Shown here: positions 5,548-36,486 of the stretch, one piece after another
Position numbering within the stretch: the first letter of the stretch is position 1
Layout: the number at the start of each line of letters is the position of its first letter
Source of the DNA: Spirochaetota bacterium
Lineage (GTDB): Bacteria; Spirochaetota; Spirochaetia; ARS1246
Length of the DNA: 38,565 bases
Reading direction: 5' to 3'
NCBI GenBank assembly: GCA_024275515.1
Contig: JAJRYZ010000103.1
Location: 1-38,565, forward strand
Position numbers and translations under genes: made by a program
The notes under the pieces: generated by a model
What the model saw: only the letters and a program-made list of their open reading frames with translations
What the model was told of the DNA's origin: nothing
Databases searched by the model: none

Positions 5548-5910
5548 CCTATTCGTCCTTCAACCTTGTACTTGTCTTCCATGATCCGCCGTCTGTCCCA
5601 GTCACTCGCGTTGCAGACGGGGGTGAGCATTGCCCGGCAGCAGTACCCGAATACGACGTTCTCGTGGCGATTCGCCGACACTATTCGACTAAACATCGGA
5701 GAACGGTGAAGCAGACGAATGTTTCAGTCTCAAAACGAGACTACCGAGCGGAGACGGCAACGATGTAGTCGGCTTTGAGCTACGGATCGCGCCCGCGCGG
5801 AAAGGTGTCGGGGTGAGCGATCCGGACCAAGGCCGCGGATAACCAAGTTCACCGTGGCCGACCGCCTGATAGTGCAACCTATTCCCGGCCGTAGATACCG
5901 ACGTCGAACT

Positions 5911-6073
5911 CGGCGCTCTTTGCACAAGCTGTTTCTTCCGCAGCGGAATTTGATTCGGATGTGCCTCATAACTCTTCGATAGTTCCTGGAGAGTCCTCTC
6001 CTCCTTGTAACGCCCCAAGCGCTTCGTTCGCCCCAAAACTCTTGTCGAATCTCTTCCTCTTAACCGATCTCAG
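5911..6073 (-). pseudogene. Decayed IS3-family orfA (transposase HTH) fragment
   Basis: Two minus-strand frames together reproduce the N-terminal part of an IS3-type orfA. The first reads VKRKRFDKSFGANEALGALQ, the second EERTLQELSKSYEAHPNQI followed by KKQL. A frameshift near 6000 joins them and the start codon appears to have become CTG. No orfB is visible. The remaining bases of the 5548-6181 gap show no gene. Confidence 0.65.
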
Positions 6074-6181
6074 TATTCTGTCCTAACCCCATAGCTCAGA
6101 ATAATAATCGGACCGGCGACCGAAGGAAAGGAAGAGGGTGCTCGAATTGGTGACGATGGAACCTCCACGGCTGATTCGGCC

Positions 6182-6724
6182 CTATCCCGATATCACCGAC
6201 GAAAGGGCGCTCAAAAACAGCACGCCGATTCCCAACGCGACATTTACGAGAAGCAACGCCATGCTTATTCGTTCTTTTGCCGACGGAGCGAAAGCATGTG
6301 AATCCCGGGAGGAAGCCCTTGGGATTGCCGGATTACCCGGTTTTTCCCCGGGCATGGCGGGCGGGCCTCCCAAAGCGAGGCTGCGAACCACAGTTGCGGC
6401 AATCATGAGAAGCACCAGCACGTGCTTGAGCGAGAGAACCGTCGAATATCGATTGTCCCAATGGAAGTACCCCTGAAACATCGAGCTTTGTCTGGACATG
6501 AGGATGCCGGTAATGATAAGCCCTCCGATGCTGATATAGACCGGGATGCGAAGCTTTTTTTGAAACCCTGTCATGAACTGTTTCCTTTTTGGCCCGCGTC
6601 CCAACTGTTTCCGCACGGTGGGAAATACCGCAAGTGCGGTAGCCATAAGCCCACCGACCCACACCGCGGTAAACAAATCGTGGAGAAAGGTCATCATTGT
6701 AAATACAATCATCTTAGGTTCCAT
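6182..6724 (-). CDS. CopD-like integral membrane protein, 180 aa
   Basis: Four hydrophobic segments are apparent (about residues 8-35, 58-78, 95-118 and 152-178), with a conserved-looking HDLFTAVWVGGLMAT start characteristic of CopD/DUF4149-type membrane proteins. A proline and charged loop lies between segments three and four. The role in this family is uncertain; some members are linked to copper, others act in unknown envelope functions. A GGAGGAAC ribosome site precedes the ATG. It is transcribed divergently from tetR, and the shared 176-bp intergenic region holds a candidate TetR operator, so it may be under the same control. Confidence 0.65.
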   Translation of the reverse strand: MEPKMIVFTMMTFLHDLFTAVWVGGLMATALAVFPTVRKQLGRGPKRKQFMTGFQKKLRIPVYISIGGLIITGILMSRQSSMFQGYFHWDNRYSTVLSLKHVLVLLMIAATVVRSLALGGPPAMPGEKPGNPAIPRASSRDSHAFAPSAKERISMALLLVNVALGIGVLFLSALSSVISG

Positions 6725-6900: not shown

Positions 6901-7494
6901 ATGCAGGAAACTACGGCACGGCAACGCGAGATCGTGGAGAAGTCCATTGCGCTGATCGCCCGTCGAGGTATCCAGGAACTGACAATCAGGAACCTCGCCG
7001 CGGCCATTGGGATTTCCGAGCCCGCGATTTACCGCCACTTTGCAGGCAAGACCGATATTCTTCTCGGCGTACTCGATGTATTAGAGCGGGAAATCCCGGC
7101 CCGGACAGGTATTGACCGAACCGACCGCACTTCGACCACCATCGGAAACTATTTCAGCGGGTTGTTCAACCATCTTGAAGCGGCGCCCGATCTTGCGGCG
7201 GTTATCTTCGCGGATGAGGTATTCCTTAACGACGAACGCCTAGCCGCGCGCGTGCGCGAGCTCATGGAACGTAGCCTTCTCAACGTTGAGGCGCTTATTT
7301 CGGAAGGTCAGAAAAAGGGAGAGTTTCGCACCGATGTTTCGGCCTCCGATCTCGCCTCCATGCTCGTCGGTACGATTCGGTTGATCGTTCGGCGCTGGCA
7401 TCTTTCAGGATTCGCGTTTGAGCTTTCCCCGCGAGGTATGCGAGCGGTTGAATCGTTTCAGACGGTGGCTGCACTCGGCGGTAATAGAGAGTGA
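6901..7494 (+). CDS. TetR/AcrR-family transcriptional regulator, 197 aa
   Basis: The N-terminal DNA-binding domain is clear: IVEKSIALIARRG, then LTIRNLAAAIGISEPAIYRHF with the recognition helix at about residues 40-50, then KTDILLGVL. The remaining 140 residues are a helical ligand-binding domain. As usual for the family it is probably a repressor released by a small ligand. It sits directly before an RND transporter operon and has candidate operators on both sides of itself, so it likely controls its own gene, the transporter operon and perhaps the divergent membrane protein. Confidence 0.9.
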   Translation: MQETTARQREIVEKSIALIARRGIQELTIRNLAAAIGISEPAIYRHFAGKTDILLGVLDVLEREIPARTGIDRTDRTSTTIGNYFSGLFNHLEAAPDLAAVIFADEVFLNDERLAARVRELMERSLLNVEALISEGQKKGEFRTDVSASDLASMLVGTIRLIVRRWHLSGFAFELSPRGMRAVESFQTVAALGGNRE

Positions 7495-7563: not shown

Positions 7564-9897
7564 ATGAGAACGTTTTTCTCGACGGTGAGTCGCAGGCCGG
7601 TTACAACGATCCTGATTGTGGTTGCAATAACTATCGGCTTCGTGATCCTCACGGCAAATGGTTTCCGGATTGAGGCCGATCTGGATGAGTATATGCCCGG
7701 CAACCATCCCGCCTTTGTTTTCAGCGAGGAAGCCGAAAAATGGTTTGGAATCGCCGATGGTGTCCTGATCGCTATTTCCCATCCCGACGGTGTTTTCCGG
7801 CCGGAGACCCTGGGAAAGATAATCGCCATAGGGGAGGCGTTGGGGGAGATCGAAGGAATCGATCCCGAGGAGGTCGTCTCGCTCGCCACCGCCAACAACA
7901 TTACAGGAAGTGATTGGGGCCTCGAGGTCACGCCTTTTTTTCGCTCCGTTCCGACTACGAAATCCGGGCTGACCGCGCTGGAGGAGGCGGTCCGCGCCAA
8001 CCCGATGATCTGGGGGCGACTGGTCTCAACCGACGGTACTGCGGCCCTGGTGGTTGCCCAGCTTTCGGAGGAAGGCCTCTCCCGGGAGACCTATGCGGAG
8101 ATAAAGGAGATTGAACGCTTCTTTGAAGGGCCCGAGCGAATTTACGTTGCCGGGCGACCAATCGTCGAAGGAGCGCTGGCCGAGCTGGGGCCGTCGGATA
8201 TGAAACGGATGGGTCCCATCGTTCTCATTGCAATCTCTTTTGTCCTGTTCATCCTTCTGCGCAGTATTCGCTATACGATCCTAAGCATGATTGTTGTCGG
8301 ATTCAGCGCTATATGGACCTTTGGATTGATGGCGCTCCTTGGCATACCGGTCTACGCCGTGTCGACCATGATTCCTGTAATGCTCGTTGCTATTGGAGTG
8401 GCATACTCGATCCATATCATCAATAGCGCAACCGTCTACCGTGAAACCAACCCCGATTCAACCGCTCGGGAACTTGCCGATCACGCAATAACCACGATTA
8501 CACGACCGGTTGTGATGACGGCACTCACCACCATTGTTGGATTTCTCTCTCTTTTAACCTCGGCGGTACTCCCGGTTCGTTATTTTGGATTGTTTACCGC
8601 GTTCGGCGTTTTTTCGGCCATGCTCCTCTCTCTCACATTGATCCCTGCGAGCTTTCTGCTCTTCGGTGTCCCAAAATCCTCCCGCGCAACAAAGAAGCAA
8701 GGCGGACCGGACCATGTGGCGCAGCGAATAGCCCGGATGATCGGTAAAAGATGGAAACCTATACTGCTATCCGCGGGAGTCTTTGTGCTTGTGTTGGGAG
8801 CGGCGATACCTCGTGTCTGGATTGATTCGAGTTTTATCTCCAACTTCACCAGGGACTCGGATATTGTTCTCACCGACGCTTTTGTAAACGATCATTTCGC
8901 AGGCACCTCGACGCTCAACATCGTGCTCGAGGCGGACAGCCCGGACACCTTCAAACAACCTGAAATTCTTGCCCTCATCGACCGGCTTCAAATCCAGCTC
9001 GAAAAAAGCGATGCGGTGGGCGACACTCTGTCGGTCGCCGACTATCTCAAACGAATGCACCAAGTCATGCACGCCGATGAAGCCGCGTACTACGTAGTTC
9101 CCGATTCTCGGGATTTGATTGCACAGTATCTGCTGCTCTACGAAATGTCCGCCGAGCCGGGAAGCCTTGAACAGAGTGTTGACTACGAGTATAGACGCGC
9201 GAATATTACCGTACAGTTAAAGAGCGACAGTTCCCGGACTTTAAGCTCCATTGTCGAACAAGCCGACACTTTCAGCCCCCTCTTTGATGAATACGGTGTT
9301 ACTCTTCGCTACGCCGGGTCAGGTTATCGGGCACTTGTATTCGCCGAGCTGATCCTGACGGGTCAGATAAAAAGCCTGGCGCTCTCGCTTCTCATCGTCG
9401 TTGCACTACTGTCAATCATGTTCCGAAGCCTCAAAATCGGTCTCATCGGATCGGTCCCGATACTTCTCACCGCGATAGCCAATTTTGGAGTGATGGGACT
9501 TCTTGGAGTGCCTTTGAGTATATCCACTGCATTGATATCAAGTATCGCCGTCGGCATCGGCATCGACTATGCGATCCATTTTATAGAGCGTTATAAACAG
9601 TATATGACGCAGTTTCGAAATCGCGACCAGGCTTCCGAGTTCACGATGCATCACAGCGGCAGAGCGATCCTCTACAACGCGACGGTCGTGGCAATTGGAT
9701 TTGCGGTGCTTCTGTTTTCGGTCTTTCCCCCGAACCAACAGGTTGGCGGCTTGATCTCCCTGAATATGGTTGTAAGTTTTCTCGGTACGGTAACCGTACT
9801 CTATCTGTTGCTTTACCGAGGGAGAATCTTCGCCACATCTCAATCTCAATTAATTACCCAGGAGGAGGTGCACCATGATGCACAAACGCAGGAATAG
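7564..9897 (+). CDS. RND/MMPL-type transporter permease, 777 aa
   Basis: The protein has the two-fold repeated RND architecture: one N-terminal membrane helix (about 12-30), a large periplasmic loop, five helices (about 205-360), another helix near 400, a second loop, then five C-terminal helices. Sequences such as VAIGVAYSIHIINS and its duplicate VGIGIDYAIHFIERY are typical of the MMPL/HpnN-like branch that exports lipids or other hydrophobic compounds. ATG at 7564 is preferred because AGGAG lies 7 nt before it and the GTG at 7528 overlaps an operator. It overlaps the next gene by 23 nt, so the three genes form a coupled operon. Confidence 0.88.
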   Translation: MRTFFSTVSRRPVTTILIVVAITIGFVILTANGFRIEADLDEYMPGNHPAFVFSEEAEKWFGIADGVLIAISHPDGVFRPETLGKIIAIGEALGEIEGIDPEEVVSLATANNITGSDWGLEVTPFFRSVPTTKSGLTALEEAVRANPMIWGRLVSTDGTAALVVAQLSEEGLSRETYAEIKEIERFFEGPERIYVAGRPIVEGALAELGPSDMKRMGPIVLIAISFVLFILLRSIRYTILSMIVVGFSAIWTFGLMALLGIPVYAVSTMIPVMLVAIGVAYSIHIINSATVYRETNPDSTARELADHAITTITRPVVMTALTTIVGFLSLLTSAVLPVRYFGLFTAFGVFSAMLLSLTLIPASFLLFGVPKSSRATKKQGGPDHVAQRIARMIGKRWKPILLSAGVFVLVLGAAIPRVWIDSSFISNFTRDSDIVLTDAFVNDHFAGTSTLNIVLEADSPDTFKQPEILALIDRLQIQLEKSDAVGDTLSVADYLKRMHQVMHADEAAYYVVPDSRDLIAQYLLLYEMSAEPGSLEQSVDYEYRRANITVQLKSDSSRTLSSIVEQADTFSPLFDEYGVTLRYAGSGYRALVFAELILTGQIKSLALSLLIVVALLSIMFRSLKIGLIGSVPILLTAIANFGVMGLLGVPLSISTALISSIAVGIGIDYAIHFIERYKQYMTQFRNRDQASEFTMHHSGRAILYNATVVAIGFAVLLFSVFPPNQQVGGLISLNMVVSFLGTVTVLYLLLYRGRIFATSQSQLITQEEVHHDAQTQE

Positions 9898-10678
9898 TTT
9901 TCGCGCAATCGCACTGCTTACGGTCTTGTTCGCGGCAGGCAAAGCCTCGCCGTTCCCACAGCCAAATCTGAGCGGGCTGCAGGTCATGACCAACGTCTAC
10001 GAACGACCGCAGCCGCACGATCTGCAGGGTTCATTGACGATGACACTCGAAAACGCAAGAGGGGAACAACGGATCAGGAGTATCAGGCAGTATATCGGCC
10101 GGTTTGGTGATGTCGAAAAAAAGTTGTTGTTTTTCTCGTCGCCGGCGGACGTACGTGATACCTCGTTTATGAGTTGGAGTTATGACAACCCCAACCGGCC
10201 CGACGATCAGTGGATATATCTTCCCGCGCTGCGGCGGGTACGACGTATCTCCGCGGAGAAGAAAAACGACAGCTTCATGGGATCCGATTTTGAATATGAG
10301 GATCTGAGCCGGCGTCACCCCGAGCTCGATGTCCATCGCGTGTTACGTACGGAGTCGTTCAATGGGCACATGAGCTATGTCGTGGAAAGCATTCCCGAAT
10401 CGAATGACTCAAAGTATGGGCGGACGGTGACATGGATTAACGAGGGCGCCTGGATTGGTTTGAGAAAAGAATTCTACGACAGGAAAGGCAATCTGGTCAA
10501 GACACTCATAATCGACGAGTACAGCCAAATAGACTCGTTCTGGACGATTACAAAAATGACCATGACCGACGTTCGGACCGGTCACTCAACGGTTATGGAA
10601 CTGTCGGATCTTGATTTGAACACGGGAATTCCCGAACAGAGCTTCAGCGAACGAAGTATGACGAGAGGAATTCGATAA
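9875..10678 (+). CDS. LolA-like periplasmic (outer-membrane lipoprotein-sorting type) protein, 267 aa
   Basis: A signal peptide (about residues 1-25, ending near GKASP) precedes a LolA-like half-barrel domain. The stretch IYLPALRRVRRISAEKK followed by FMGSDFEYEDLS is the typical signature of the LolA-like family that accompanies MMPL/RND transporters. It probably carries the hydrophobic cargo of the RND pump across the periplasm. An AGGAGGTG ribosome site lies inside the end of the RND gene. The stop overlaps the next start codon (TAATG). Confidence 0.85.
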   Translation: MMHKRRNSFRAIALLTVLFAAGKASPFPQPNLSGLQVMTNVYERPQPHDLQGSLTMTLENARGEQRIRSIRQYIGRFGDVEKKLLFFSSPADVRDTSFMSWSYDNPNRPDDQWIYLPALRRVRRISAEKKNDSFMGSDFEYEDLSRRHPELDVHRVLRTESFNGHMSYVVESIPESNDSKYGRTVTWINEGAWIGLRKEFYDRKGNLVKTLIIDEYSQIDSFWTITKMTMTDVRTGHSTVMELSDLDLNTGIPEQSFSERSMTRGIR

Positions 10679-11907
10679 TGCGCACAAAGATATACATAGC
10701 GGCTTTCATTACTCTTCTCGTCGTCGCGGCAACTGCGACGACAGAAGAGCCATCTCTTCATGGAACCGTCCGGTATCAACTTGCCGTACGATACCTTGAA
10801 CCGGACTTTACCCGCGGCACAGTGACAGCCGAGACCGAGCTTGATGTGCGCGGATACAGCGCCGGTCTATATATCGCCCCGGTCTTCGAGACCGGAGTTG
10901 ATTCTTCGGCGACTGTCGATGTACGTGAAGCCTATATGGACCTGTTTTTTCCCGCGGCCGACCTCCGGGTCGGCAAGCAGATTGTAATCTGGGGAAAATC
11001 AGACGGCGTCGCAATTACGGACATCGTCAGCCCCAGGAATCTGACCAATTTTCTTGTCCCAGATATCCGGGACCTGCGCCTTGGAGTAACAGCGCTGAAG
11101 GCAGACTGCTACATTGGCCCCGCGCAGTTGGAACTCGTCTACATTCCGCTCTTCTCCCCTTCGCGCCTCCCTGCGCCGGATTCCATCTGGTTTGTAACAC
11201 CCGAAGCTCCCGTCACTCCACTCTACCTCGCCCCTGCCTCGGTCGGCGGGCGACCGGCGGACGGTGAGTACTACGGGCGGTTGGGTCTGCGAGGTAGCAT
11301 AATCGATCTCGAGCTTGCCGCGGGCTACTTCTGGTCAAACGAGCCGGCGCCTTCGGTGACCAAGACCTTTTCATCCTCGGGGGCGCTGTCGAGTCTGATC
11401 ATCCAACCGGAGTTCTACCGCCGGACCATGTTCGGCGGCAGCCTCGGCGCCTCGGCAGGACCATTCATACTCCGGGGAGAGAGTGCTTTCTTTGCTCCAA
11501 AAAGGTTTCTTACCACCGACATGGCCGATGTCGACGGATATGTGGAGCACAACTATCTCCACTCCCTTGTGGGTGTCGACACAGTTCTGGCCGGAGTCGA
11601 CCTCTCCGCTCAAATCGTACATCAGTACATATTATCTTATACTTCAGACCTTTTGCAGGAGAAACACAGTTTTACGGCGACTCTTCGGGCAAGGGAATCG
11701 TTTTTTCACGAATCACTTACGGTAAATCTATTGTCATTCGTCGAACTCAATAATCCAAATGCCGTTATTAAGGCCGGTCTTTCCTATGCTTTCACAGACG
11801 CTCTGGCAATCGGCATCGAAGGGATATTTTTCCTTGGCGAATCCGGGCAGTTCGGTCAGTTTGCGGGTAACGATCTTGCCGTTGTAACCGCCGCATACAA
11901 GTATTGA
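10678..11907 (+). CDS. DUF1302-like outer-membrane beta-barrel protein, 409 aa
   Basis: A signal peptide (about 1-21) is followed by many amphipathic strands and a C-terminal aromatic-type end (VTAAYKY). The segment VREAYMDLFFPAADLRVGKQIVIWGKSDG with VSPRNLTNF after it resembles the conserved part of DUF1302 proteins, which are often encoded with RND transporters and LolA-like partners. It is probably the outer-membrane partner of this export module. Translation is coupled to the previous gene by TAATG overlap. A hairpin follows 18 bp after the stop. Confidence 0.75.
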   Translation: MRTKIYIAAFITLLVVAATATTEEPSLHGTVRYQLAVRYLEPDFTRGTVTAETELDVRGYSAGLYIAPVFETGVDSSATVDVREAYMDLFFPAADLRVGKQIVIWGKSDGVAITDIVSPRNLTNFLVPDIRDLRLGVTALKADCYIGPAQLELVYIPLFSPSRLPAPDSIWFVTPEAPVTPLYLAPASVGGRPADGEYYGRLGLRGSIIDLELAAGYFWSNEPAPSVTKTFSSSGALSSLIIQPEFYRRTMFGGSLGASAGPFILRGESAFFAPKRFLTTDMADVDGYVEHNYLHSLVGVDTVLAGVDLSAQIVHQYILSYTSDLLQEKHSFTATLRARESFFHESLTVNLLSFVELNNPNAVIKAGLSYAFTDALAIGIEGIFFLGESGQFGQFAGNDLAVVTAAYKY

Positions 11908-32068: not shown

Positions 32069-32196
32069 CCAAACGAGCGCATAAACCAAAACAAGCTGCA
32101 GGATCAGCCAAAGCCAAGATCGAGACCGGCTTGGGCGGAAGGGGCGAGATCGGAGCACCGCCTGATTGTATTGCTTCAATCCGAAACTACTTTTAA
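32065..32196 (+). CDS. Micro-ORF of 43 codons, coupled to the previous one
   Basis: It starts MTKRAHKPKQAAGSAKAK, basic at the N-terminus, and ends RNYF. Start and previous stop overlap in ATGA. It overlaps the start of the brxC-like relic in another frame, which makes it less likely to be real. Confidence 0.18.
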   Translation: MTKRAHKPKQAAGSAKAKIETGLGGRGEIGAPPDCIASIRNYF

Positions 32197-32515
32197 GTCA
32201 ATGGCGGAAATCGATTCGGCGGCTCAGGAAATCGTGACCTCATACCATATTCTCTATGAAAAGATCCACACCGAACGTTCCGGGCAATACCAGGACGCGG
32301 TGGAAAAGACTAAAGGCCGGCCGAAGTGAGAGCAGGTGCCCGAATCCATGCGGGACGAGGTGCTCTCCTCTCTTGCGTCGCGTGTGTGCGCGCAGATCGA
32401 TTCTCCGGACCTGTCTGCCGTGCAGGGCACGGCGCAGGCCGGTACGAGCCTCACCTGCAATACATGTCGCGCCGGTCTGAACCAGATGAAGTCGGACATT
32501 GAGACTCTTGGATGA
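32150..32515 (+). pseudogene. 3'-terminal relic of a BrxC/DUF6079-like BREX ATPase gene
   Basis: One frame reads EHRLIVLLQSETTFKSMAEI, then AAQEIVTSYHILYEKIHTER and DAVEKTKGRPK, meets TGA at 32327-32329, and continues EQVPESMRDEVLSSLASRVC to SLTCNTCRAGLNQMKSDIETLG and a normal stop. The pattern of a helical HAER-type segment, an IKGRPEW-like motif and a terminal CxxC resembles the end of large DUF6079/BrxC-like proteins of BREX loci (from memory of the family). The stop falls where GRPEW would have its tryptophan, within about one codon. The N-terminal bulk of the gene (normally over 1000 residues) is gone. The assignment is likely but needs a profile search. Confidence 0.5.
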
Positions 32516-32538
32516 TTTATGCGAATTGGAGGTGTATC

Positions 32539-32883
32539 GTGAGCAATGAGGAACATAAACTGAACCCCGAGCAGAGCATTTTGGAAGAATTGGTTCAGCG
32601 GCTGTCCGGAATGGCCGGTATTGTGCGGATTATTCTGTTCGGTTCCGCAGCGCAAGGCCGCATGGGACCCGACAGCGACTTGGATCTGCTGGTTATCGTC
32701 AAAGACGGGCTTCACCGCAGGCGTACCGCTCAGTCCATTTACAAGAGGCTTTCAGGACTTGGAACATCCAAGGACATCGTAGTCGTCACGGAAAGCGACG
32801 TTCGCAAGTATAAGGACAATCCGTCGCTCGTCATATTTCCCGCGCTGGCGTCAGGCAAGGAGCTTTACCATGCCGCAGGATAG
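32539..32883 (+). CDS. MNT-type nucleotidyltransferase, antitoxin-like, 114 aa
   Basis: The minimal nucleotidyltransferase motif LFGSAAQGR (33-41) with D47 and D49 in SDLDLLV is clear. In MNT/HEPN pairs this protein modifies the HEPN toxin, usually by adding AMP to a tyrosine, and so neutralises it. GTG at 32539 is chosen because GGAGG lies 6 nt before it; an upstream ATG at 32512 has no ribosome site. Its end overlaps the HEPN start by 14 nt. Such pairs often lie inside BREX loci next to brxC-like genes, which fits here. Confidence 0.88.
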   Translation: MSNEEHKLNPEQSILEELVQRLSGMAGIVRIILFGSAAQGRMGPDSDLDLLVIVKDGLHRRRTAQSIYKRLSGLGTSKDIVVVTESDVRKYKDNPSLVIFPALASGKELYHAAG

Positions 32884-33268
32884 GCGAGGACCAGGCACTG
32901 CAGAGGATTGGTTGAGCAGGGCCAAAGGGGATCTTGCCCTGGCCAAAGCGCCGCTTCCCGAAGGCGCCTTCTATGAGGACCTTTGCTTTCATGCGCACCA
33001 AGCGGCTGAAAAAGCGATCAAGGCAGTTTACCTCAGCTGCGGATATGCTTTCCGGTACACGCACGATCTGGACGAACTCCTCGACGGCCTGGAGCAAGTC
33101 GGTTTGGTCATTTCGAGGCCGTTGAAAGACTCCATCGTTCTCACCAGCTATGCGTGGGAAGCCCGCTATCCGGGATTAGGTGAGCCGATAGCTGAAGCGG
33201 AGTACAGGGAGGCGGTGGATATGGCGGAACGGGTGGTTCAATGGGCACAAGAGGCGATTCCTTCATGA
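32870..33268 (+). CDS. HEPN-domain protein, toxin-like, 132 aa
   Basis: The HEPN fold is shown by AEDWLSRAKGDLALAK, then HAHQAAEKAIKAVYLSCG (41-58) and FRYTHDLDELLDGL (61-74), the classic order for pfam05168-type proteins. RYTH may belong to the Rx-H RNase/modification motif. With the MNT partner it forms a probable toxin-antitoxin module. It is intact while the flanking BREX genes are broken. The stop lies at 33266-33268, and the truncated pglZ follows 13 bp later. Confidence 0.85.
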   Translation: MPQDRRGPGTAEDWLSRAKGDLALAKAPLPEGAFYEDLCFHAHQAAEKAIKAVYLSCGYAFRYTHDLDELLDGLEQVGLVISRPLKDSIVLTSYAWEARYPGLGEPIAEAEYREAVDMAERVVQWAQEAIPS

Positions 33269-33281
33269 GGATACTGCTCGA

Positions 33282-34592
33282 ATGGGAAAGGTCGTGGAGT
33301 GCATTATCGAAAACAATAAAGTCCCAACTGCAAAAGCACCGCCCGGCAAGAGCGTTGTGCGGCAACGCGATATCTTTGAAAGCCACGTCAAGCCGTCCCT
33401 CGGCAACGGCAAGATCGCCTACGTGTGGGTCGACGCGCTTCGGTTCGAGATGGGCAGGGAGCTTGCGCGTTTGCTCAAGGAGGACGTCGAAGTCGAGCTT
33501 CATGTTGCTCCGGCAGCGGTTCCGACCGTCACCGAGATCGGCATGGCGGCGCTTCTGCCCGGAGCGCATGCCGATGCCAAGGTGGTCACCGCGGGCGGAG
33601 GGCAATTGGCTCTGGAGATCAACGGAACGGTCGTCAAGGACCGTAAGGACCGCGTGGATTTCCTGAAAAAACACGCCGGCGTCGCAGTTTTCGACGCCAA
33701 GCTTGACGACCTTTTACCCAAGCCGTCGAAAAAGGTCCGAGAGGGCATCGCGAATGCCGAATTGATTCTCGTGACCTCACAAGGAATTGATGAACTCTGC
33801 GAAAAAGACAACATCACGCAGGCGAGAAGACAGATGGATGGTGTCCTGAACCACCTTCGGCGAGGCCTTCGTGCGCTTCTGGACCTGGATGTTCAACGCA
33901 TCGTTCCGGCGGCTGACCATGGTCATCTTTTCGGCGAGGAACTGAGTAAGGACATGAAGGTGGGCGCCCCCGGTGGAGAGACCGTCGACCTGCACCGCCG
34001 CGTCTGGGTGGGTCATGGAGGCAGGGCGGATGACGCATTCCCGCGCATGCACCTGAGCACTCTGGATATGCAGGGCGCGTTCGACTTGGCTACACCGTGG
34101 ACCTTTGCCTGCTTCAAGTGCAAAGGTGGTGCACGCGCTTTCTTCCACGGAGGGCTTTCGCCACAGGAGCTACTCATTCCGGTCATGACGATAGACTCGT
34201 CGGCAAAACTCACATCCGGGTCTCCTGTCGGAATCACATGGACAATCACTCCAGGGAGCAAAAAGCTCTCCACCCGGTTCTTCTCGGTGCAGATTGCCGG
34301 CGTTAACTCATAGCTATTCGACATTGTCCCGTCAAAAGTTCACGTTGAGCTGCGAGCCAAACGCAAGACCATTTCACGTGCTGTCAGCGCTTCGTACGGA
34401 TTCGAGGTAGCTACCGGCGATGTAGCGCTTCGAAACGATGAAGAGAACACCAAGAATATTGCCGCCAACACGGTCACACTGATGGTTGTTGAAGAGCCCG
34501 GTCAGAAGTACGTCGGGCTCTACTTGCTTGACGCGGAGACAGGTGCTGAATTGTCACGACTGGAGAAGATCGAAGTAGCCATCGCAATGTAA
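33282..34592 (+). pseudogene. pglZ: 5'-truncated pglZ with one in-frame stop
   Basis: PglZ is an alkaline-phosphatase-fold BREX protein. The fragment contains the domain core: AYVWVDALRFEMGREL (D51), APAAVPTVTEIGMAALLPGA and VPAADHGHLF (D212, H213). TAG at 34311-34313 interrupts the frame, but it continues LFDIVPSKVHVELRAK, then ASYGFEVATGDVALR and ends AIAM at 34592, ten bases before brxL. The N-terminal half (several hundred residues in full PglZ) is missing. The first codons after the HEPN stop do not obviously belong to PglZ, so a deletion junction lies near 33269-33345. pglX, normally nearby, is absent. Confidence 0.85.
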
Positions 34593-34602
34593 TGGATGAA
34601 GA

Positions 34603-35997
34603 ATGCCGGAACTTGATCGAAAAGCCACAAGAGTTTTCGCCGGAAAGGTAGTCCGAAAGGACCTGGTCCGGAAGGTGAAGGTCGGAGCGAACGTGCCGGT
34701 CTTCGTTTTGGAGTATCTTCTCGGCAAGTACTGTGCCACCGACGACGCGACCGCCATCGACGCGGGCCTTCGCGTCGTAAACACCACGATCAGCTCCAAT
34801 TTCGTTCGCCCCGATGAAGCGAAAAAAGCGCAATCGATGGTCAAGGACAAAGGCAAGCACACCCTGATCGACAAAGTGAAGGTGCGTTACCTTTCCGACG
34901 ACGACAAACACTGGGCGGAGTTGGTTAACTTCGGGCATAAGTATGTTCATGTGCCGGAGCACTTCCTGCGTGAATATGACCGCCTCCTTATGGGAGGCAT
35001 TTGGGCTCAGATTGACATCAGGCATCAATACGATGAGGACGCCAGGGGTAAACGGAGTCCGTTCTGGATCGATAGTCTTAAGCCGATCCAGATCGCAACT
35101 TTTGACTTGGAGGAGTTCCGGGAGTGCCGCAGGAACTTCACTACTGATGAGTGGCTCGATCTTTTACTACGCACTATCGGCCTTGAGCCACGGAGCTTCG
35201 CCCGGCGTTTGAAGATGCTGTTCCTGGTTCGCATGATTCCTCTTTGTGAACACAATTACAATCTCGTTGAGCTTGGACCTCGCGGAACGGGAAAAAGCTA
35301 TGCATACCGGGAGCTCTCGCCATATACGATTCTGTTAACCGGTCCGACCACGGTCGCCAATCTATTCTACAACATGGCGACCGGGGAAATGGGCTTGGTG
35401 GGCATTTGGGAGGCCATCGGCTTCGATGAAGTGGCCGATCTTCAGAAGATGTCCAAGGATGTGGTGACGACCCTGAAAACGTACTGTGAGTCCGGCTCCT
35501 TCGCCCGCGGCAAGGATGCGTTATCAGGCGTGGCCTCCATCGCGATGTTTGGGAACACAAACCAGCCGGTCGAGGTGATGGTTCGATCTTCTCATCTCTT
35601 CATGCCCATGCCGGACATTATTCGCGAGGACATGGCGTTTCTGGACCGAATCCATTTCTATATTCCCGGATGGGAACTCCCCAAAATGCGAGTCGAGTTC
35701 TTTACCGACCATTACGGGTTCGTCATCGTCGCGGTGTATTCCGCCATCAAAAAGCAATCCATCCTGGCGGGACTCTTGATCCTTGGAGATACGAGCATTC
35801 AAGGGAACATCAAGTCGTTGCGTTCGCCGGCAGAGCCGCTCCAGGTCGGTATGGATAATGGTGCACGACGGGCCCTGGTTCCTTTGGAGAACAAGCGGAA
35901 CTTCCTGGATGTGTCGGGCGACATCGTCGAGCGAGTTGATCCGATCTTTTTCTCGGACCCCATGATGGCAGCGATGAAGGCTCTGGGTATGACGTAG
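34603..35997 (+). CDS. brxL: BrxL, Lon-like AAA+ BREX protein with internal in-frame deletion, 464 aa
   Basis: The N-terminal region (LDRKATRVFAGKVVRKDLVR) and AAA+ core are normal: Walker A GPRGTGKS at 225-232, Walker B FDE at about 274-276, sensor segment FGNTNQPVEV at 316-325 and LDRIHFYIPGWELPKM at 347-362. After YGFV (371-374) the sequence jumps to AVYSAIKKQSILAGLLILGD and SIQGNIKSLR, which belong to the end of the C-terminal Lon-like domain. Full-length BrxL is usually about 650-690 residues, so roughly 200 residues appear lost without breaking the frame. The ATPase part could still be folded; the Lon-like domain could not be complete. Confidence 0.85.
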   Translation: MPELDRKATRVFAGKVVRKDLVRKVKVGANVPVFVLEYLLGKYCATDDATAIDAGLRVVNTTISSNFVRPDEAKKAQSMVKDKGKHTLIDKVKVRYLSDDDKHWAELVNFGHKYVHVPEHFLREYDRLLMGGIWAQIDIRHQYDEDARGKRSPFWIDSLKPIQIATFDLEEFRECRRNFTTDEWLDLLLRTIGLEPRSFARRLKMLFLVRMIPLCEHNYNLVELGPRGTGKSYAYRELSPYTILLTGPTTVANLFYNMATGEMGLVGIWEAIGFDEVADLQKMSKDVVTTLKTYCESGSFARGKDALSGVASIAMFGNTNQPVEVMVRSSHLFMPMPDIIREDMAFLDRIHFYIPGWELPKMRVEFFTDHYGFVIVAVYSAIKKQSILAGLLILGDTSIQGNIKSLRSPAEPLQVGMDNGARRALVPLENKRNFLDVSGDIVERVDPIFFSDPMMAAMKALGMT

Positions 35998-36251: not shown

Positions 36252-36486
36252 ATGTCGCAAGGTTTTCCCAAGGCCCGGGAGTCGGTTACGATGACTGTTG
36301 CGCGCAGATCGGACCGGGTCTATAACGAGGCTTGTCGCACCCTTGTGGATATCTTCGAAGCCTATACACTCCAGGGGAAGGCAAAGCGCTTTTGAGGAGA
36401 TAATGAAAGAATTTATGGCCGACGACATGCCGCGCCAGGCGTTGATTCAACGTCTCGTGAAGGCCGATCACTGGGATGTCGAATAG
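36252..36486 (+). pseudogene. Small frameshifted gene of unknown function
   Basis: One frame reads SQGFPKARESVTMTVARRSD, then ACRTLVDIFEAYTLQGK, and another continues QSAFEEIMKEFMADDMPRQ to KADHWDVE and stop. A one-base insertion near 36381 would join them into a protein of about 77 residues. Upstream (36000-36251) the same frame carries another stop near 36216, and no gene can be supported there; an arginine- and glycine-rich 101-codon frame at 36020-36325 looks random. The family is unknown. It ends 2 bp before the next gene, so it was probably part of the same operon. Confidence 0.45.

Follow-up and report, generated by a model that had tools for sequence, protein, structure and literature searches.

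Type-1 BrxL proteins (TIGR02653) include the structurally solved Acinetobacter protein (PDB 8emc/8emh), in which an AAA+ domain (residues ~170-469) is followed by a linker (469-497) and a C-terminal domain (498-679) (PMC10164562). Loss of the Walker-B glutamate alone is equivalent to loss of BrxL in the Acinetobacter system, and restriction is abolished (PMC10164562). Type-4 BrxL proteins (TIGR02688, 449 positions) naturally lack the Lon-like domain but keep the entire ATPase (PMC12839542). An Antarctic cyanobacterium has been described as carrying incomplete BREX sets in which brxL or pglX is truncated (PMC9716671).

In this study, we analyzed a 38,565-nucleotide stretch of DNA from a Spirochaetota bacterium (the whole stretch is referred to as the window), which carries a shortened brxL gene. 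Like Type-1 BrxL of Acinetobacter, its product has the N-terminal domain, the P-loop half of the ATPase and the last 90 residues, but it lacks residues 380-589 (Acinetobacter numbering). It resembles Type-4 BrxL in length and in having no complete Lon-like domain; in contrast to Type-4 proteins, its ATPase is cut short (the TIGR02688 match stops at position 367 of 449) and half of a Lon-like domain is retained. Assignment to Type-4 was ruled out on these two grounds, and we class the protein as a degenerate Type-1 BrxL. We consider it very probable that a Type-1-like BREX operon, of which the window contains the tail, is undergoing decay chiefly through deletions, and that the short brxL is an inactive leftover.

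The brxL gene and its internal deletion

The features of the gene, all on the plus strand, are as follows.

34603..35997, +, brxL with an in-frame internal deletion, 464 aa (ORF call, HMM, PDB match, alignment to the closest relative)
35275..35298, +, Walker A motif GPRGTGKS, codons 225-232, intact (invariant columns)
35422..35430, +, Walker B motif FDE, codons 274-276 (PDB alignment, invariant columns, PMC10164562)
35722..35727, +, deletion junction, codon 374 joined to codon 586 of relatives (633 bp absent compared with relatives)
35725..35994, +, last 90 codons, the C-terminal half of the Lon-like domain (HMM, PDB match, DNA alignment)

The open reading frame was called as BrxL by NCBIfam, Pfam and PADLOC. 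Its TIGR02653 match scored 723 bits, with a first part covering profile positions 3-374 of 675, and the protein aligned to BrxL 8emc over two colinear segments (residues 3-376 with chain residues 8-379, then 375-463 with 590-678). Both matches break at residue 374-376 and pick up ~211 residues further on. The closest BrxL relatives are 675 aa long, and the nearest are 87-89% identical to the window protein. We used the closest of all, from a Deltaproteobacteria MAG (L031, DNYO01000233.1), as the reference for DNA alignment. Window position 35723 pairs with position 7121 of this locus and, at the same base, with position 7754; thus, 633 bp, or 211 codons, are absent and the reading frame is retained. 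The join lies at 35724|35725, i.e., V374|I375 of the short protein, and dozens of relatives place the break at the same position. An earlier note, made from the sequence alone, had proposed an in-frame loss of about 200 residues and a product of 464 residues, and both agree with these data. A deletion preserves the frame by chance in one of three cases.

Because the gene lies in a fragmented assembly (329 contigs, 94.8% complete, 6.5% contamination), the missing 633 bp could in principle have been dropped in assembly or binning from a genome that has a full-length brxL. For an assembler to drop a unique stretch of this size, a long word must recur at both of its ends. The longest word common to the two break regions in 11 relatives is at most 8 nt, and only a few bases are identical in register, which makes an assembly collapse unlikely; no direct repeats were found at the join. 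No second brxL copy was detected in the genome, and the neighboring genes have decayed independently. An artefact is therefore highly improbable.

In Acinetobacter numbering, the loss removes ~90 C-terminal residues of the AAA+ domain, the hinge at 469-497, and residues 498-589 of the C-terminal domain. The earlier note placed the junction between the end of the AAA+ part and the last part of the Lon-like domain; the latter is indeed retained, but the AAA+ domain is not complete. Domain searches gave the same picture. The N-terminal domain PF20442 is present (149 bits, residues 11-140), only positions 1-222 of 313 of the AAA+ profile PF13337 are matched, and the Lon-like C-terminal domain is represented by chain residues 590-678 of 8emc only. 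Both Walker motifs are intact, with E276 of the short protein equivalent to E280 in the Acinetobacter structure. The rest of the gene, which had been described as undamaged, has neither stop nor frameshift, and its product departs from one of 89 near-invariant columns (D270E), a number not above that of complete relatives.

Conservation is as high in the lost AAA+ piece as in the retained part (mean modal fraction 0.76 vs 0.74 in 81 full-length BrxL proteins). Fourteen of its columns are invariant in at least 95% of these 81 sequences, and R407, D408, K410, R413 and R445-R447/K449-L452 are invariant in a 36-sequence alignment. We take this segment to be the C-terminal lid subdomain, judging from AAA+ proteins in general. 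Such lid subdomains normally contribute to binding of ATP and to contacts between subunits. The suggestion that the deletion might leave a working ATPase is unsupported, because well-conserved helices at the C-terminal end of AAA+ are gone, as are the linker and one half of the Lon-like domain. Judged from these losses, the 464-aa product should neither form an ATP-driven ring nor restrict phage.

In the AlphaFold model of a full-length control, the removed segment corresponds to helices 375-385, 391-396, 406-423 and 431-454 and most strands of the C-terminal domain. From the control to the short model, pLDDT of the C-terminal remnant fell from ~88 to ~65, pTM from 0.54 to 0.34, and the Foldseek TM score against solved BrxL from ~0.65 to 0.33. 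The control itself has a pLDDT of only 25-47 over residues 218-351, i.e., the AAA+ core is poorly modelled in both cases, so the models do not decide the fate of the ATPase core and were dropped as proof of a broken ATPase.

Remains of the BREX operon and its partners

Upstream of brxL, the following features were identified.

32159..32500, +, C-terminal scrap of brxC, 27% identical to residues 956-1059 of a BrxC-like protein (tblastn, E 4e-10)
32512..32883, +, MNT nucleotidyltransferase, probable antitoxin of a HEPN-MNT pair (PF01909/PF18765; NF047752 MntA below cut-off; relative in the same place before pglZ in locus L060)
32870..33268, +, HEPN-domain protein, probable toxin partner (PF05168, E 2e-26; relative after the MNT gene in L060)
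33333..34592, +, 3' part of pglZ, codons 454-872 of 872, no indel (tblastn, 76% identical to PglZ of L031; PF08665 PglZ domain)
34311..34313, +, in-frame TAG stop in pglZ (tblastn, stop located)

In relatives, brxC or pglX, followed in some by accessory genes, precedes pglZ (~870 aa), with brxL close behind. The brxC scrap was recognized with a 1127-aa BrxC-like ORF from a locus that also bears brxL (L061) and is no longer recognizable just before the MNT gene. Codons 1-453 of pglZ are gone; after the TAG, coding sequence runs on without indel to the normal end. The stops that had been noted in the neighbors were located at this TAG and at a TGA in the brxC scrap (32327-32329). Just after brxL, at 36290-36486, the short frames MTVARRSDRVYNEACRTLVDIFEAYTLQGKAKRF and EEIMKEFMADDMPRQALIQRLVKADHWDVE resemble one small gene split by a frameshift. 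In the L031 genome, the full pglZ-brxL genes are followed by a '6A-MBL' anti-phage gene pair (8313-11743).

The MNT-HEPN pair of the window is intact, while the BREX genes on either side are broken. Since L060, a complete-looking operon, has a related pair in the interval from pglX to pglZ, the window pair probably belonged to the BREX operon. Such pairs are thus embedded among BREX genes in two unrelated genomes (window 32512-33268; L060 2870-3352). Toxin-antitoxin addiction may have kept this stretch from being lost.

In the rest of the genome, we found no second PglZ, and the only copy is not intact, consisting of codons 454-872 with a stop inside. PglX (NF033452) had no match; with the genome ~95% complete, its absence is likely, not certain. 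No BrxC match exceeded the 400-bit cut-off in the genome, the only traces being the scrap at 32159-32500 and a weak 55-bit match on another contig. That contig encodes a 1649-aa protein (L130, 6669-11618; contig C103 of genome G000) with weak BrxC/PglY and SspC matches in its N-terminal part and a RecD-like helicase adjoining it. The two are possibly another defence system.

Could the remaining genes form a reduced, working BREX-like system composed of the MNT-HEPN pair, a mini-PglZ and a mini-BrxL? Each of the four genes has an open frame, and L060 likewise carries MNT-HEPN before pglZ-brxL. The longest ORF within the pglZ remnant (33282-34313) would encode a 343-aa mini-PglZ that keeps PF08665, and GAGGA before its ATG at 33282 is a plausible ribosome site. 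This protein would nevertheless lack the last 93 residues of PglZ, and the perfectly aligned coding sequence beyond the stop points to a fresh nonsense mutation. With BrxC and PglX absent, and with this arrangement found nowhere else, we regard a reduced system as extremely unlikely.

Short and broken BrxL genes in other genomes

No BrxL homologue with the junction of the window gene was found in 74 genome loci, 3 viral loci, 60 of 317 plasmid records (an even sample), 198 relatives and 393 genomes of the phylum, and the exact junction DNA was not found in viral contigs. Among 103 BrxL-bearing loci, a large internal shortfall was seen in the window, L103 and L115 only. The earlier note had proposed a search for other short homologues with this junction; the sole other in-frame short BrxL found, in L103, differs at the left breakpoint. 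This 259-aa protein (JAFCZI010000168.1, positions 675-1454, from a Deltaproteobacteria MAG) lost 1254 bp, from ~codon 169 to 585/586, including the whole ATPase, with ~4 nt of common sequence at the join. It resembles the window gene in having an in-frame internal deletion, the right breakpoint at codon 585/586, and the lack of a preceding pglZ on its contig.

The chance that two right breakpoints agree within ~6 nt is ~1% if breakpoints are uniform over the last 300 codons, a figure that applies to two cases noticed post hoc. No third case with this right breakpoint was found in the loci or in the viral, plasmid, relative and phylum searches. It is very doubtful that in-frame short BrxL genes keep arising with their right end fixed at codon 585/586, either from a deletion hot spot or from selection on the N-terminal DNA-binding part together with the last 90 residues. 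The right breakpoint that the two genes have in common is a minor puzzle and the only finding here that merits a follow-up scan.

Further broken BrxL copies occur in L115 and L101. In the latter (5747-6700), BrxL ends at ~residue 211 in an in-frame fusion to unrelated sequence. A brxL query matches 692 of 5,426 E. coli genomes, with most of the query covered in only 344 of them. The partial copies that were sampled are 3'-end relics of 30-110 codons, and both of those inspected adjoin IS elements or a restriction gene. Many complete E. coli genomes have no more of brxL than such a 3' end, for example L133 6001-6330 and L134 6001-6180, and the annotation given is 'S16 family serine protease', 'peptidase' or 'hypothetical protein'. 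Like the window gene, these relics are remains of the last gene of a BREX operon after deletion or replacement; unlike it, they contain the 3' end only, with no in-frame fusion to the 5' end. Because partial brxL matches are frequent in E. coli genomes, BREX loss that leaves brxL remains is common in high-quality genomes.

The open frame and the fate of the short BrxL

We further asked what the open frame says about function. About 3.4% of random single changes in the pglZ remnant or brxL create a stop. The pglZ remnant contains one stop and no indels in 1.26 kb, and one stop per 2.65 kb for this remnant and brxL together corresponds to a neutral change of ~0.011 per site after inactivation. 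The expected number of stops in brxL is then ~0.55, and the Poisson probability of finding none is ~0.58; accordingly, the undamaged state of the rest of brxL proves little. Branch omega for brxL is 0.019 in the window vs 0.021 in relatives, and that for the pglZ part 0.108 vs 0.066 (2dlnL 2.3, not significant); the window branch in this test probably predates the deletion for the most part and is too long to date it.

Expression of the gene in the window is doubtful, because the upstream pglZ has a premature stop and, in Salmonella, a mutant pglZ is polar on brxL and lowers its transcription (PMC9009780). A consensus scan found no promoter directly before brxL, which is weak evidence.

These data bear on the alternative that the short BrxL is expressed and maintained, for example as a DNA-binding or dominant-negative form acting without the ATPase cycle. 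Its frame, start, stop and catalytic motifs are kept, near-invariant columns are respected apart from the single departure, and omega is not raised. The ring-dimer contact residues T658/Q661 fall within the retained C-terminal part, and a C-terminal brxL fragment has been tied to global transcription effects in Salmonella (PMC9009780). Against this, the genome is without BREX partners, the early end of pglZ may be polar, the form is shared with no relative searched, and an absence of stops is expected more often than not in any case. We therefore consider a maintained short form very unlikely; most likely, the short brxL is a recent relic without function and not a shortened enzyme that still works.

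The decay of the operon may be pictured as follows, although the number and order of events are inferred. Most of brxC and pglX would have gone by deletion, codons 1-453 of pglZ by another, and the 633 bp inside brxL by yet another that happened to preserve the frame. The embedded MNT-HEPN pair would have stayed intact between the eroded BREX genes. If made, the 464-aa product would still have the N-terminal domain, which binds DNA, and the half of the ATPase that carries the P-loop. Missing from it would be the C-terminal subdomain of AAA+, the hinge and one half of the dimerising domain.

Should the short form prove functional, it would separate the DNA-binding role of BrxL from its ATPase cycle. 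As a decaying operon, the locus illustrates a route by which BREX operons may die, in which a few large deletions run ahead of point decay and leave open frames behind. Such leftover frames would be automatically annotated as BrxL and PglZ, and reliance on an N-terminal match alone would overcount BREX components.
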